Part shown: piece after piece, positions 39,764 to 43,640 of the stretch | Position numbering within the stretch: the stretch's first letter is position 1 | Layout: the number at the start of each line of letters is the position of its first letter | Origin: Ruegeria sp. TM1040 | GTDB lineage: Bacteria > Pseudomonadota > Alphaproteobacteria > Rhodobacterales > Rhodobacteraceae | NCBI RefSeq assembly: GCF_000014065.1 | Contig: NC_008044.1 | Location: forward strand, 3,061,501-3,125,500 | Reading direction: 5' to 3' | Length of the DNA stretch: 64,000 nucleotides | Program-made: the position numbers and the translations under genes | Notes under the pieces: model-generated | What the model saw: only the letters and a program-made list of their open reading frames with translations | Database searches by the model: none | What the model was told of the DNA's origin: nothing

Positions 39764-39880
39764 ATGGCAGAACATGCGGGCGGATGCGGGCAGATGCAAG
39801 CACCTGCTGCAGACGGCCAGCTGCGATTATGTGCAGCCGTCGTCGCTTGACACAGGCGAAAAGACTGCCGCATGAGAGGG

Positions 39881-40070
39881 GCGATGGTTCCCCGACGCCT
39901 AAGGCCGGTGGGATGAAAAGGGAATTCGGTGCGGAGGAGCCAAAGGGCGCCAAATCCGAAACTGCCCCCGCAACTGTAAGCGGCGAGCGCCCCGTCACAG
40001 CCCACTGATCCTCATGGATCGGGAAGGGAGGGACGCGCAATAACCCGCAAGTCAGGAGACCTGCCATCGC
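39881..40070 (+). promoter_or_regulatory. Cobalamin (B12) riboswitch
   Basis: Closing stem GCGATGG (39881-39887) with CCATCGC (40064-40070). Inside are the conserved elements GGTGGGATGAAAAGGGAA, CGAAACTGCCCCCGCAACTG and the B12 box GTCAGGAGACCTGCC near 40050. Binding of adenosylcobalamin should lower expression of the import genes that follow. Downstream, GCGGGC (40085-40090) pairs with GCCCGC (40096-40101) directly before a GGAGG, a likely expression platform acting on translation. Confidence 0.95.
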
Positions 40071-40111
40071 GACTTTTTAACCAAGCGGGCGGTGGGCCCG
40101 CGGAGGACGCG

Positions 40112-40192
40112 ATGCCAGATGTCAAAACTCTGATGAGTCACACTTGCACGCCTCTTGGTCGGAGGTTGGGATGCACGTTTATCTCTATCTGA
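40112..40192 (+). CDS. Possible 26-residue leader ORF after the riboswitch
   Basis: ATG at 40112 stands 5 bases after GGAGG (40102-40106), immediately after the platform hairpin. The frame starts MPDVKTLMSHTCTPLGRR and stops at 40192, overlapping the first 22 bases of the next gene in another frame. A ribosome site this good right after the riboswitch suggests the platform controls this ORF and that the next gene is coupled to it. The peptide itself may have no function. Confidence 0.4.
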   Translation: MPDVKTLMSHTCTPLGRRLGCTFISI

Positions 40193-40890
40193 TTTCAGCC
40201 AATTACGTCAGCACAAAGCGGTTTGCGGCGCTTTCGAGACGGCTCGAAGAGCTTGCGCCCAAACCTGCGATGGCCATTCGGCTGGAGGCAGACGGGGTCG
40301 GGCTATGGCAAGCGCTGGACACACTCAGGGCGCGTGGTGCGCGCCGAATCGACCTGCGTCCTGTGGGCCTTCCGTTTTCGCAATCACTGGAAAACTGGCT
40401 ACCGGGTGCGGCGGGGGCATGGTGCGCGCAGCAGAATGGCGTTCCCCCCGAAGTTTTCTTTGCGAGCAGCCCCGAGCATGACGACGACGTGATCCGGGCG
40501 GTTGCCAGCGCAGAGGTCTCGTTGCAGCGGGTCGTGGATCGGCCCAGAGGCGAGATCGGCAAAGGCTGGGATCTGCCCCCACCGCATCAGCACCATCTCC
40601 TGGTCTGTACCGGTCCGCGTTGCCACCTCAAAGACGCACCGAACCTTGCGGATCATCTCAAGTCGGAAATCCGGCGCGCGGGGCTTGGGGACAGCTGTCT
40701 GGTCACCACAACGGGCTGCGTCTTTCCCTGCAATGCGGGGCCGGTGATCGTGCATTATCCGCGCGGGGATTGGTATCGGGTTCCGGATCTCTCGGAGATC
40801 CAGCGTTTTGTCAAAACCGTCCTTGTGCAGGGCGGTAGGCTTGAACATCTCATTTTCCATCAAACGGGAGTCTCCCATGAAACTGCGTAA
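40171..40890 (+). CDS. Chelatase-like domain fused to thioredoxin-like [2Fe-2S] ferredoxin
   Basis: A 239-residue cytoplasmic protein, first main gene after the B12 riboswitch; GGAGG lies 5 bases before the ATG. The C-terminal 95 residues are a COG3411-type ferredoxin: CTGPRC near residue 150 and TGCVFPCNAGP near 185, four cysteines for a [2Fe-2S] cluster. The N-terminal 130 residues resemble the layout of CbiX-type chelatases (GARRIDLRPVGLPFSQ) but lack the catalytic histidine near the start (LYLISANYV). It may process cobalt or corrinoids; this is inference. Confidence 0.8.
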   Translation: MHVYLYLISANYVSTKRFAALSRRLEELAPKPAMAIRLEADGVGLWQALDTLRARGARRIDLRPVGLPFSQSLENWLPGAAGAWCAQQNGVPPEVFFASSPEHDDDVIRAVASAEVSLQRVVDRPRGEIGKGWDLPPPHQHHLLVCTGPRCHLKDAPNLADHLKSEIRRAGLGDSCLVTTTGCVFPCNAGPVIVHYPRGDWYRVPDLSEIQRFVKTVLVQGGRLEHLIFHQTGVSHETA

Positions 40891-41809
40891 CCTTTTGCCA
40901 TTGCTCGGCCTCATGGCATCTGCAGCGCATGCTGATGCCGTCACCATCCAAAGCTGCGGCGTCTCTCAAGTGTTCGATAAAACGCCGAGCCGCGCGATCA
41001 CGCTCAACCAGCAGGCAACCGAAGTCATGCTGGCGCTGGGCCTGCAGGAAGCGATGGTTGGAACCGCGTACATTGACGACGCGATTCCCGCGCAATGGAA
41101 CGACGCCTACGAGAGCGTGCCGGTTCTGGCTGAAAAATACCCAGCCGCAGAGGTGGTATTGGCGCAGGAACCGGACTTTTTGTTTGCCGGCTTTGGATCG
41201 GCGTTTTCTGAGGACAATCTCGGTGCCGCCGAGAAATGGCACGACCTCGGGATTGGCACCTATCTTGTGGATGCCTCCTGCAAGGACAAACACCTTCAGG
41301 ACGTGCCCTTGACCGTTGCCCCGATCTTTGAAGATATTGAAACTGTTGGAAAAATATTCAACGTAGAAGACCGTGCGAACGCATTGATCGATACCCTTCA
41401 ACAGCGGTTGGACTCTGTCAAAGCAGCGCCGTCCGGGGCGGGGCAGACTGCCTTCATCTATGATAGCGGCGCAGAGACGCCTTTCTCCATCGGGTGTTGT
41501 GGCGGGCCTGCGCTGCTGGCGTCGCTCACGGGGCTTCAGAGCATCAGCAGCGATGTGCCCGGCACTTGGGTCGATCTCTCTTGGGAGCATGTGGTTGCCG
41601 CAGACCCGGATGTGATCCTGTTGATCGAGGCGGATTGGTCGACCGCCGCAGAAAAACGCGCGCACATGGAAGCGGACCCAGTATTGAGCGCGTTGCGCGC
41701 GGTCAAAGAGGGGCGTTTTGTAACCGTCCCCTTCTCGGAAACGCTGTTGGGGATGCGCTTTGCCGATGGCGTGGAGACGGTGAACAATCAACTTGCAAAG
41801 CTGCCGTAA
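40877..41809 (+). CDS. btuF: Cobalamin ABC transporter, substrate-binding protein
   Basis: A 310-residue periplasmic protein. Signal peptide MKLRNLLPLLGLMASAAHA. The TroA/FecB fold follows, with SRAITLNQQATEVMLALGL and EPDFLFAGFGSAFSEDN. The central FSIGCCGGPALL is unusual in having adjacent cysteines. It overlaps the ferredoxin fusion by 14 bases and is followed at once by permease and ATPase genes. Sequence alone does not separate cobalamin from ferric siderophore binding; the riboswitch makes cobalamin by far the better choice. Confidence 0.87.
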   Translation: MKLRNLLPLLGLMASAAHADAVTIQSCGVSQVFDKTPSRAITLNQQATEVMLALGLQEAMVGTAYIDDAIPAQWNDAYESVPVLAEKYPAAEVVLAQEPDFLFAGFGSAFSEDNLGAAEKWHDLGIGTYLVDASCKDKHLQDVPLTVAPIFEDIETVGKIFNVEDRANALIDTLQQRLDSVKAAPSGAGQTAFIYDSGAETPFSIGCCGGPALLASLTGLQSISSDVPGTWVDLSWEHVVAADPDVILLIEADWSTAAEKRAHMEADPVLSALRAVKEGRFVTVPFSETLLGMRFADGVETVNNQLAKLP

Positions 41810-42817
41810 ATGCGTCGCGGATCGCCCCTGTTGCTGCCAGCCTCTGGTCTGGCGCTGTTGCTTGCGATGGCCGCAGGGGTGCTCTGGGGCACTGCTGACA
41901 TCAGCTGGGGTGATCGGCTGGCGATCCTCATGCATGACGATGATGCACCGCGTGGGCTGTCGATGATCGTCTGGCAATGGCGCATTCCGCGTGTGCTGGC
42001 GGTCGGAATGATCGGCGCCGGTTTGACGTTGGCTGGTCTCTTGATGCAGACCGCGCTGCGCAACCCGATGGCTGATCCTTATCTGATGGGAGTGTCCTCA
42101 GGAGCGTCGGCGGCGGCCGTTGGGGCGATCATCTGGTTTCCGTCGCAGATGACGGAAACACTTGGTGTCCCTCTGATCGCCTTTCTTGGTGCGGCAGCTG
42201 CTTTCCTGATGACGCTCACGCTCTCGCACCGGCGAGGGCGTGCGCTTGATCCTTTGGTGGTTATCCTCGCCGGTGTTGCGGTATCTCTTATGTTCCAGGC
42301 GCTTACGGCGTTCTTCCTCTATGTTGGTGATCCGCATGCCACGCGCAATGCGATGGGGTGGTTGATGGGAACGGCGGCGGGAACCGATTGGGAGGAGCTA
42401 CCACTTCTGGGCACCATCCTCGCCCTGTCGCTGGTGCTGGCGTTGCGCGCGTCGTCCAAGCTGGATGCAACTTTGCTCGGGGATGAGCGCGCGCAATCAC
42501 TGGGCGTCAATGTCGGGCGCATGCGACTGCTGGTGTTCTTTGTCACAATCGCGCTGACCGGGGTGGCCGTTTCGATCGCGGGGATCGTTGGTTTTGTGGG
42601 GCTGATCCTGCCCCATATGGCGCGCCTGTTGGTCGGCGCCCGCCACCGTGTCCTGATCCCACAGGCGGCCATCCTCGGGGCGATCACACTGATTCTTGTC
42701 GATCTGGCGTGTCGGGTCGTACTGGCGCCAGAGGAATTGCCGCTTGGCGTGTTGCTGGCGCTTCTGGCGGCGCCGCCGTTCATCTATATCCTGCGGGGGA
42801 TGGCCCATGCCCGATGA
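41810..42817 (+). CDS. btuC: Cobalamin ABC transporter, permease (FecCD family)
   Basis: A 335-residue membrane protein with about ten helices of the FecCD type. It contains QTALRNPMADPYLMGVSSGA, the highly conserved region near residue 85, and GFVGLILPHMARLLVG near residue 262, the coupling helix to the ATPase. It begins directly after the btuF stop, without intervening bases. Confidence 0.93.
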   Translation: MRRGSPLLLPASGLALLLAMAAGVLWGTADISWGDRLAILMHDDDAPRGLSMIVWQWRIPRVLAVGMIGAGLTLAGLLMQTALRNPMADPYLMGVSSGASAAAVGAIIWFPSQMTETLGVPLIAFLGAAAAFLMTLTLSHRRGRALDPLVVILAGVAVSLMFQALTAFFLYVGDPHATRNAMGWLMGTAAGTDWEELPLLGTILALSLVLALRASSKLDATLLGDERAQSLGVNVGRMRLLVFFVTIALTGVAVSIAGIVGFVGLILPHMARLLVGARHRVLIPQAAILGAITLILVDLACRVVLAPEELPLGVLLALLAAPPFIYILRGMAHAR

Positions 42818-43640
42818 TCCCATTCTCGAAATCCAGGATCTCTCCGTGGCAGTTGGTGGGCTCCCCTATGTTCGCGACCTCTCGCTTTGTGTGGAGCGTG
42901 GGCGATTTCACGGTCTTCTTGGTCCAAACGGTGCCGGCAAGACGACGCTTCTTCGTGTCCTCTATCGCGCGATCGCGCCGCAATCCGGCGAGGTACGACT
43001 AAATGGGCGTCCGCAGTCCGACTTCAGCCCAGCGCAATGGGCGCGGCATGTCGGCGCTCTGGTCCAGGGTGGCGGGCTCTTGTCTGGTCTGACACCCGAA
43101 GACATCGTGGAGATCGGCCTCACCCTGCGTGAGCGCCCCAGCGCGAAACGCAAAGAGGCCGTGCAGGATGCGCTCAGTTTGGTGGGTCTGCAGGACAAGG
43201 CCCGACAAGACGCCGAGAGCCTGTCCGGGGGAGAGCTGCAGCGCTGCTACTTCGCGCAGCTTCTTGCCTGCGACCCGGAGGTCTATGTGCTCGATGAGCC
43301 GACAAATCACCTGGATCTGCACTATCAACTGCGATTGTTGGATGAGGTGCGTCGCAGGGGGCGCAGCGCGATCGTGTCATTTCACGACTTGGGAATGGCG
43401 GCGCGCTACTGTGACACAGTTCATCTGATGCAGGAGGGTCAGTTGGTCGCAGAAGGCCCCCCGCAAGCGGTGCTGACCCCTGAGGTTCTCCATCAGCACT
43501 ATCGCGTAGACGGGCGGCTCGATGGCCACAGCCTCAAGCTGGAGGGGCCGGTTCTTGACGGAACCGACCCCTTGCGTGTCTTTGAAGATGAGCGAAGTCA
43601 GGCGACCTTGTGGTCGTCATCTGCGTCGTCAAAGGCCTGA
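42807..43640 (+). CDS. btuD: Cobalamin ABC transporter, ATP-binding protein
   Basis: A 277-residue ATPase with Walker A GPNGAGKTTL near 39, signature LSGGELQRCYFAQ near 140, Walker B VYVLDEPTNHLD near 160 and H-loop VSFHDLGMAARYC. It overlaps btuC by 11 bases, completing the importer. Its last 43 bases overlap the 3' end of the convergent chemoreceptor gene. An extra C-terminal stretch of about 40 residues (HSLKLEGPVLDGTDPLRV) is typical of siderophore and B12 ATPases. Confidence 0.93.
   Translation: MPDDPILEIQDLSVAVGGLPYVRDLSLCVERGRFHGLLGPNGAGKTTLLRVLYRAIAPQSGEVRLNGRPQSDFSPAQWARHVGALVQGGGLLSGLTPEDIVEIGLTLRERPSAKRKEAVQDALSLVGLQDKARQDAESLSGGELQRCYFAQLLACDPEVYVLDEPTNHLDLHYQLRLLDEVRRRGRSAIVSFHDLGMAARYCDTVHLMQEGQLVAEGPPQAVLTPEVLHQHYRVDGRLDGHSLKLEGPVLDGTDPLRVFEDERSQATLWSSSASSKA

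Follow-up and report, generated by a model that had tools for sequence, protein, structure and literature searches.

Many bacteria place the import of cobalt or of corrinoids under B12 control, and we know of no gene that is generally assigned to a reductive step after such import. Among the closest described systems, CbtJKL of S. meliloti is a riboswitch-controlled BtuF-like importer (PMC7689651, PMC12239276) that is encoded on pSymB under an AdoCbl riboswitch and, as related in PMC7689651, transports Co(II), although cobalamin had at first been assumed to be its substrate. For iron, FhuF is described in the same source as a [2Fe-2S] ferrisiderophore reductase (PMC7689651). The class II chelatases CbiX, SirB and CfbA (PF01903) are represented by SirB of B. 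subtilis, whose metal site is formed by His10, Glu43 and His76 with the two histidines conserved (PMC11301274), and CobW is described as the metallochaperone that handles Co(II) in the late-insertion pathway (PMC10206600). Fusions of a chelatase with a ferredoxin are known in kind from the haloarchaeon Halobaculum roseum, in which a "CbiX/SirB N-terminal domain-containing protein" has a CbiX part and, after it in a single frame, a related [2Fe-2S] domain. That protein differs from the one considered below in keeping its HGS histidine, in lying in a cbi biosynthesis operon with no importer and in having, by our reading, two CbiX-like repeats.

The window analysed here is a stretch of 64,000 nucleotides from Ruegeria sp. 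TM1040 (positions 3061501-3125500 of contig 3, which has 3,200,938 bases, in a genome of 4,153,699 bases on three contigs). Like the S. meliloti system it contains a BtuF-like importer operon behind a cobalamin riboswitch, and the first gene of this operon encodes a fusion of a chelatase-like domain with a ferredoxin (Table 1). An earlier note on this DNA had placed the fusion directly under a cobalamin riboswitch and ahead of btuFCD. The first part of this description is confirmed by a match to RF00174 far above its gathering score of 31.5 bits, with the ATG of the fusion gene 89 nt downstream. The mechanical list of open reading frames opens this gene at an alternative TTG at 40144; the start is taken as the ATG at 40171 because an ATG stands in the same alignment column in ten close FecCD-linked homologues (L031, L032, L017, L035-L040, L019), and the gap from riboswitch to fusion is 85-92 nt in the window and the ten closest FecCD-linked homologues. 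The binding-protein gene has a possible ATG start, read from the sequence, that overlaps the fusion gene by 14 nt, and the ATPase frame opens with a TTG at 42696, the downstream ATG being assumed as its start.

Table 1. Features of the riboswitch-fusion-importer locus, in positions of the window.
Feature	Coordinates	Strand	Basis
Cobalamin riboswitch aptamer (RF00174)	39868..40082	+	137.1 bits, E 2e-34, full-length 1-189/189
Fusion gene, degenerate CbiX/SirB-like domain and predicted [2Fe-2S] thioredoxin-like ferredoxin, 239 aa	40171..40890	+	ATG
Class II chelatase-like domain, residues 1-120	40171..40530	+	hhalign, VIA-align, His/Glu columns
Predicted [2Fe-2S] ferredoxin domain, from about residue 134	40570..40887	+	PDB profile matches; C146 C151 C183 C187
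btuF/cbtJ-like periplasmic binding protein	40877..41809	+	PF01497
btuC/cbtK-like FecCD permease	41810..42817	+	PF01032 E 9.7e-92
btuD/cbtL-like ABC ATPase	42807..43640	+	PF00005 E 3.8e-30; homologues keep same order

The name btuFCD for the three downstream genes is one by resemblance: the binding protein, of class III, is only loosely BtuF-like. It scores 19.7 bits against the BtuF equivalog model, with a cut-off of 234, a result that leaves room for B12 transport by a distant relative. The candidate S. meliloti counterpart, the pSymB locus L144, consists of a riboswitch, binding protein, permease and ATPase and is probably cbtJKL, a name absent from its record; its permease is 42% identical to that of the window over about 250 residues and its binding protein 25%. 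It differs from the window in that its annotation holds no fusion gene and a methyltransferase-domain gene comes after the importer. As a separate observation, the best model for the fusion-linked binding proteins, below its cut-off, is TIGR03868 ("putative F420-0 transporter") in the window and in L126, L129, L136 and L049. The window protein reaches 271 bits against a cut-off of 392.4, and the name of this model may mismatch the substrate of these proteins.

The N-terminal half had been proposed to have the spacing of a CbiX-type chelatase, and profile and fold comparisons bear out the likeness to CbiX. Pfam CbiX (PF01903) gives no match to the window protein at E<=1, and a PDB search with a profile of 19 N-domain homologues returns 11 weak matches that include CbiX 3lyh (E 0.014), SirB 6jv6 and 5zt7 and three cobaltochelatase entries, the best of the 11 being an unrelated oxidoreductase (8y12, E 0.0098) ahead of CbiX. 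Direct comparison of the N-domain with 30 CbiX domains by hhalign gives a probability of 95.7 and a score of 52.9 over 95 columns (residues 16-112, so that the first strand with the first histidine falls outside), whereas 60 column shuffles reach no more than 18.7 and reversed CbiX 11.5. An AlphaFold model built from 6 sequences has ten-residue pLDDT means of 68-93 over residues 1-100, 56 over residues 101-110, 72 over residues 111-120 and 32-61 beyond, and because of these last values the ferredoxin half is without a confident model. The structure-prediction comparison that the earlier note had suggested puts SirB and CbiX at the top of the fold matches: VIA-align gives Z 11.6-11.9 for SirB (top: rmsd 2.8, 118 residues), 10.5 for CbiX (rmsd 2.8, 100 residues), 10.3 for FetB (9b86), 8.3-9.2 for CfbA and at most 7.3 for all other rows listed. 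Foldseek with the same model yields no match at E<=0.001, and its first 15 rows are all CfbA, SirB or CbiX at E 0.004-0.03. On these profile and model comparisons, residues 1-120 have a CbiX/SirB-type chelatase fold and are homologous to that family. FetB of Porphyromonas gingivalis resembles chelatases, binds haem and belongs to a system for iron/haem uptake, and it is not known to have a ferredoxin half; by analogy, it would set an earlier example of a chelatase fold recruited to import.

The fold is thus that of a chelatase, with the catalytic histidine pair missing from the aligned columns. The window protein has S9 at the position of the first histidine (A10 instead in the alignment to 6jv6), E39 at the position of SirB Glu43 and S72 at that of the second histidine. 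Among 37 fusion sequences the first histidine is absent from 36, the sole one being in the divergent row of L137, and the second from all 37; the glutamate position holds Glu in 25/37 and Asp in 5/37. Both histidines are kept in 30/30 CbiX domains. The earlier note had remarked on the loss of one catalytic histidine, and its partner proves to be gone as well, so that "cobalt loading" in the sense of a chelatase finds no support. A working chelatase that inserts cobalt into a macrocycle would account for the fold, and a stray histidine does occur near the first position, no more than three columns away, in 3/37 rows and equally near the second in 5/37, but the two histidine columns, together with the presence of CobN and a separate CbiX-domain protein in the same genome, speak so strongly against this that it is rejected as highly improbable. 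The separate CbiX-domain match of the host lies at C3:1935646-1935930 (inside L088) and scores 40.1 bits, over its cut-off. Relative to CbiX, SirB and CfbA, the fusion therefore shares the fold and the glutamate and differs in its missing histidines, in being missed by the Pfam model, in its fused ferredoxin and in its linkage to an importer.

The C-terminal half is, judged from its sequence, a thioredoxin-like [2Fe-2S] ferredoxin and would be expected to bind a cluster. The four-cysteine pattern seen in the earlier note, C146-x4-C151...C183-x3-C187, is invariant in 37/37 homologues (19/19 in a smaller set), and PDB profile matches are to HydB-type hydrogenase subunits (best E 7.5e-24), the [2Fe-2S] ferredoxin 1f37 and NuoE-type subunits, all of which share the four cysteines and the sequence family. 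The Pfam model PF01257 scores 19.5 bits on this half, below its gathering cut-off of 24.8. HydB- and NuoE-type parts serve hydrogenases or complex I, whereas the ferredoxin of the window is fused to a chelatase-like domain.

The fusion occurs in alphaproteobacteria, other Pseudomonadota and Rhodococcus, but matches of high similarity are rare. A close fusion is present in 11/394 sampled genomes of the host's family and in 5/385 of its class, and a profile search finds 7/372 class genomes, one of the seven with the ferredoxin only. A search of 72,556 plasmids adds fusions in Roseinatronobacter, Paracoccus, Shinella, Azospirillum and Rhodococcus; Neorhizobium and Rhizobium rhizoryzae also carry it, as do other classes of Pseudomonadota, and in Azospirillum, Shinella and Neorhizobium it is located on plasmids. 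The 37 loci compared here are not independent, several being of one genus, and the count leaves out L044 and L045 (frame stop or contig end), L015, L016 and L018 (same contigs as L031, L032 and L036, judged by length), L140 (ferredoxin part only), L128 (a CbiX fusion with histidine), further plasmid matches and matches covering the ferredoxin part alone. In the records examined, the histidine-less, importer-linked ferredoxin fusion bears generic annotation alone: in eight plasmid loci NCBI names it "(2Fe-2S) ferredoxin domain-containing protein", which describes the ferredoxin half and gives no function. No description of the fusion with B12-riboswitch importers was recognised in the literature searched, in which subscription papers were mostly out of reach and an earlier mention is possible.

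The linkage to B12 recurs across the family of fusions: 31/37 loci have a same-strand cobalamin riboswitch upstream. The distance is at most 200 nt in 18 of these and about 400 nt in two; for the remaining 11 it is 2.0-5.2 kb, on the assumption of an operon. In L137-L139 and L141 the fusion lies behind cobL/cobK-type genes and nearby riboswitches occupy other positions, and in L129 (Rhodococcus) and L173 there is no cobalamin riboswitch within the stretch scanned. With six cobalamin riboswitches in the 4.15 Mb of the window genome, simple arithmetic predicts that about 0.4% of random places would have one on the same strand no more than 5.2 kb upstream, and chance or artefact is rejected in view of this linkage and of the score of the window riboswitch. 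Plasmid matches in Azospirillum, Rhodococcus and Shinella had raised a general iron-siderophore accessory as a candidate. It is dropped on the ground that those loci, too, have upstream cobalamin riboswitches, except that the riboswitch of the Rhodococcus locus L127 is weak (39.3 bits) and L129 has none. Two arrangements may be recorded beside these counts. The plasmid of Shinella sp. WSC3-e (L125, 1076-6724) holds three cobalamin riboswitches within 6 kb, near nrdHIE, metE and the fusion operon, and L017 (7390-7912) has a pair separated by 125 bases and lying on opposite strands, of which one precedes the fusion operon and the other faces away.

The importers next to the fusion are of more than one type: 22/37 are FecCD/BtuFCD-like, 8/37 NikABC-like and 7/37 other. 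These labels were assigned by the analyst, with L138 and L141 counted as FecCD though that importer has its own riboswitch, L049-L051, L134 and L135 as other although a btuF-like gene comes next, L042 and L043 as NikABC by similarity to L123, and L041 by Pfam as well. On the tree, the NikABC label changes at least three times (starred branches). Three NikA-like binding proteins and two NikABC-type permeases were scanned, and their best models are the nickel models Opp5A_nikA and Opp2B, respectively, in each case below the cut-off. Cobalamin riboswitches have been predicted before members of NikABCDE in Clostridium tetani and Desulfitobacterium hafniense, as given in PMC2667541. Retention of the fusion through these exchanges bears on the possibility that it regulates the importer, or helps it to mature, through its redox state or its cluster and has no contact with the imported complex. 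Such a role is a general possibility for small [2Fe-2S] proteins and the partners do differ, but it would leave unexplained why a chelatase-type fold is kept across the partner switches, and we regard it as decidedly improbable.

The TonB receptors adjacent to the fusion point in a similar direction to the NikABC-like partners. Of six scanned, four pass the siderophore-receptor model TIGR01783 (L126 275.8, L130 286.1, L136 224.6 and L138 274.3, with a cut-off of 223.5) and none passes BtuB, for which these four score 76-96 against a cut-off of 599.7. The remaining two, from L049 and L135, have similar BtuB and siderophore-type scores and pass neither cut-off. They belong to a set of related receptors that lie directly upstream of the fusion in L049-L051, L134 and L135 and could be BtuB-like. 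For the binding protein, the co-occurrence comparison suggested by the earlier note supports a link with the adjacent importer: the subfamily of the window protein (at least 61% identity) is present in 9/14 fusion-bearing genomes of the host's family, that of the window included, and in 0/60 without a close fusion, whose best match reaches 35% identity. These 60 genomes (G061-G120) are defined by the lack of a match at E<=1e-20, a cut that a distant form of the fusion, such as that of G001 (E 1e-11), could escape.

CbiC, used as a marker of de novo corrin (B12) synthesis, is present in 25/25 fusion-bearing genomes tested. Within the host's family it occurs in 14/14 fusion-bearing genomes against 42/60 without a close fusion (Fisher p 0.013; by genus p 0.030; good assemblies only p 0.033), a bias that rests on 11 genera and includes G126, one of the 14, which has a stop inside the fusion gene. 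The presence of CbiC in all 25 genomes, the nickel-like partners and the siderophore-type receptors together point to cobalt. This reading is weakened by the host's CbtA, located behind a riboswitch of its own, which already covers cobalt import. Replacement of CbtAB by the fusion-linked importer as a cobalt importer was considered and rejected, as CbtA shows no complementarity with the fusion (5/14 fusion-bearing genomes against 17/42 producers without it, p 1.0).

These data also bear on the suggestion of the earlier note that the protein may handle imported corrinoids, of which the part naming reduction corresponds to a definite alternative. In it, cobalamin or cobinamide would be imported, the chelatase-derived domain would bind the corrin and the ferredoxin would reduce Co(III), either to strip off upper ligands such as cyano or to ready the corrinoid for adenosylation. 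The ancestry of the N-domain among tetrapyrrole-handling enzymes is no less compatible with a corrinoid ligand than with a cobalt chelate, and the combination of lost metal-delivering histidines and a retained glutamate in a domain of sirohydrochlorin-chelatase descent is what would be expected of a pocket receiving an already metallated ring. The riboswitch with a BtuFCD-like importer, the related receptors of L049-L051, L134 and L135, which may be of BtuB or of siderophore type, and the separate CbtA of the host agree with it. It accommodates poorly the NikABC-like partners and siderophore-type receptors, the binding protein that falls far under the BtuF cut-off and the finding that the genomes tested are all B12 producers. 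The corrinoid part of the earlier suggestion is thus in doubt, since the partners, the receptors and CbiC fit a cobalt complex at least as well, and we judge corrinoid processing to be unlikely, if the most serious of the alternatives.

Reductive release of cobalt from imported cobalt complexes is the reading that we favour, tentatively and at somewhat less than an even chance. The resemblance of the importer to the probable cbtJKL locus L144 favours it, as CbtJKL carries cobalt, and so does the position of the fusion behind cobL/cobK-type genes in four loci (L137-L139, L141). The same four loci, with the chelatase ancestry and the retained glutamate, would agree with a cobalt chaperone that carries the metal to the CobNST/CobW insertion step, with a cluster that is structural or a sensor and has no redox role in release. 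Against a chaperone stand the loss of both metal-binding histidines and the presence in the host of CobW behind its own riboswitch, and we take it to be improbable. In the favoured reading of cobalt release, the fusion protein would act in the cytoplasm as the redox accessory of a module that acquires cobalt and is repressed by B12. Scarcity of coenzyme B12 would lead the riboswitch to permit expression of the operon, and the ABC importer would take in a cobalt complex, either a Co(III) chelate or a cobalt-loaded metallophore. The N-domain, descended from a chelatase and lacking the two metal-delivering histidines, would hold this complex while the [2Fe-2S] domain reduces Co(III) by one electron, and the labile Co(II) thus formed would be released for the cell's own B12 synthesis. 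Of this picture, the sequences show the riboswitch, the two-domain build, the loss of the histidines, the invariant cluster ligands, the riboswitch linkage across the family and the switching between two importer families, whereas repression by B12, location, cluster binding, substrate, direction of electron flow and cobalt release are inferred. Reduction is our best guess for the chemistry of the fusion, which would then work like a siderophore reductase, for cobalt; the parallel with FhuF-type ferric-siderophore reductases is one of function and not of sequence.

The broader proposal, that these proteins form a family of cobalt-complex reductases in which a retired tetrapyrrole chelatase and a ferredoxin were kept through repeated importer exchange and serve to free cobalt from imported Co(III) chelates for B12 synthesis, is possible but doubtful. 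If true, the family would be a cobalt counterpart of the siderophore reductases. The fusion is a conserved and testable candidate for a post-import reductive step, available in a sequenced marine bacterium and on plasmids, and riboswitch-linked "btuFCD" clusters that contain it may carry cobalt complexes rather than B12.

Other cobalamin riboswitches of the host precede genes of different kinds. One of 122 bits at C3:185259-185492 (L090 7260-7493, -) is followed by a 165-aa ORF near dnaX that has no Pfam match. Another at C3:548162-548354 (L089 7163-7355, -) stands before a glutaredoxin gene, nrdI and two class I ribonucleotide reductase subunits, an expected B12-independent set. On the contig of 821,788 bases, the riboswitch at C2:216498-216700 (L093 7499-7701, -) precedes a Rieske ring-hydroxylating oxygenase and a ferredoxin-type reductase, an unusual-looking pair for a B12 regulon.
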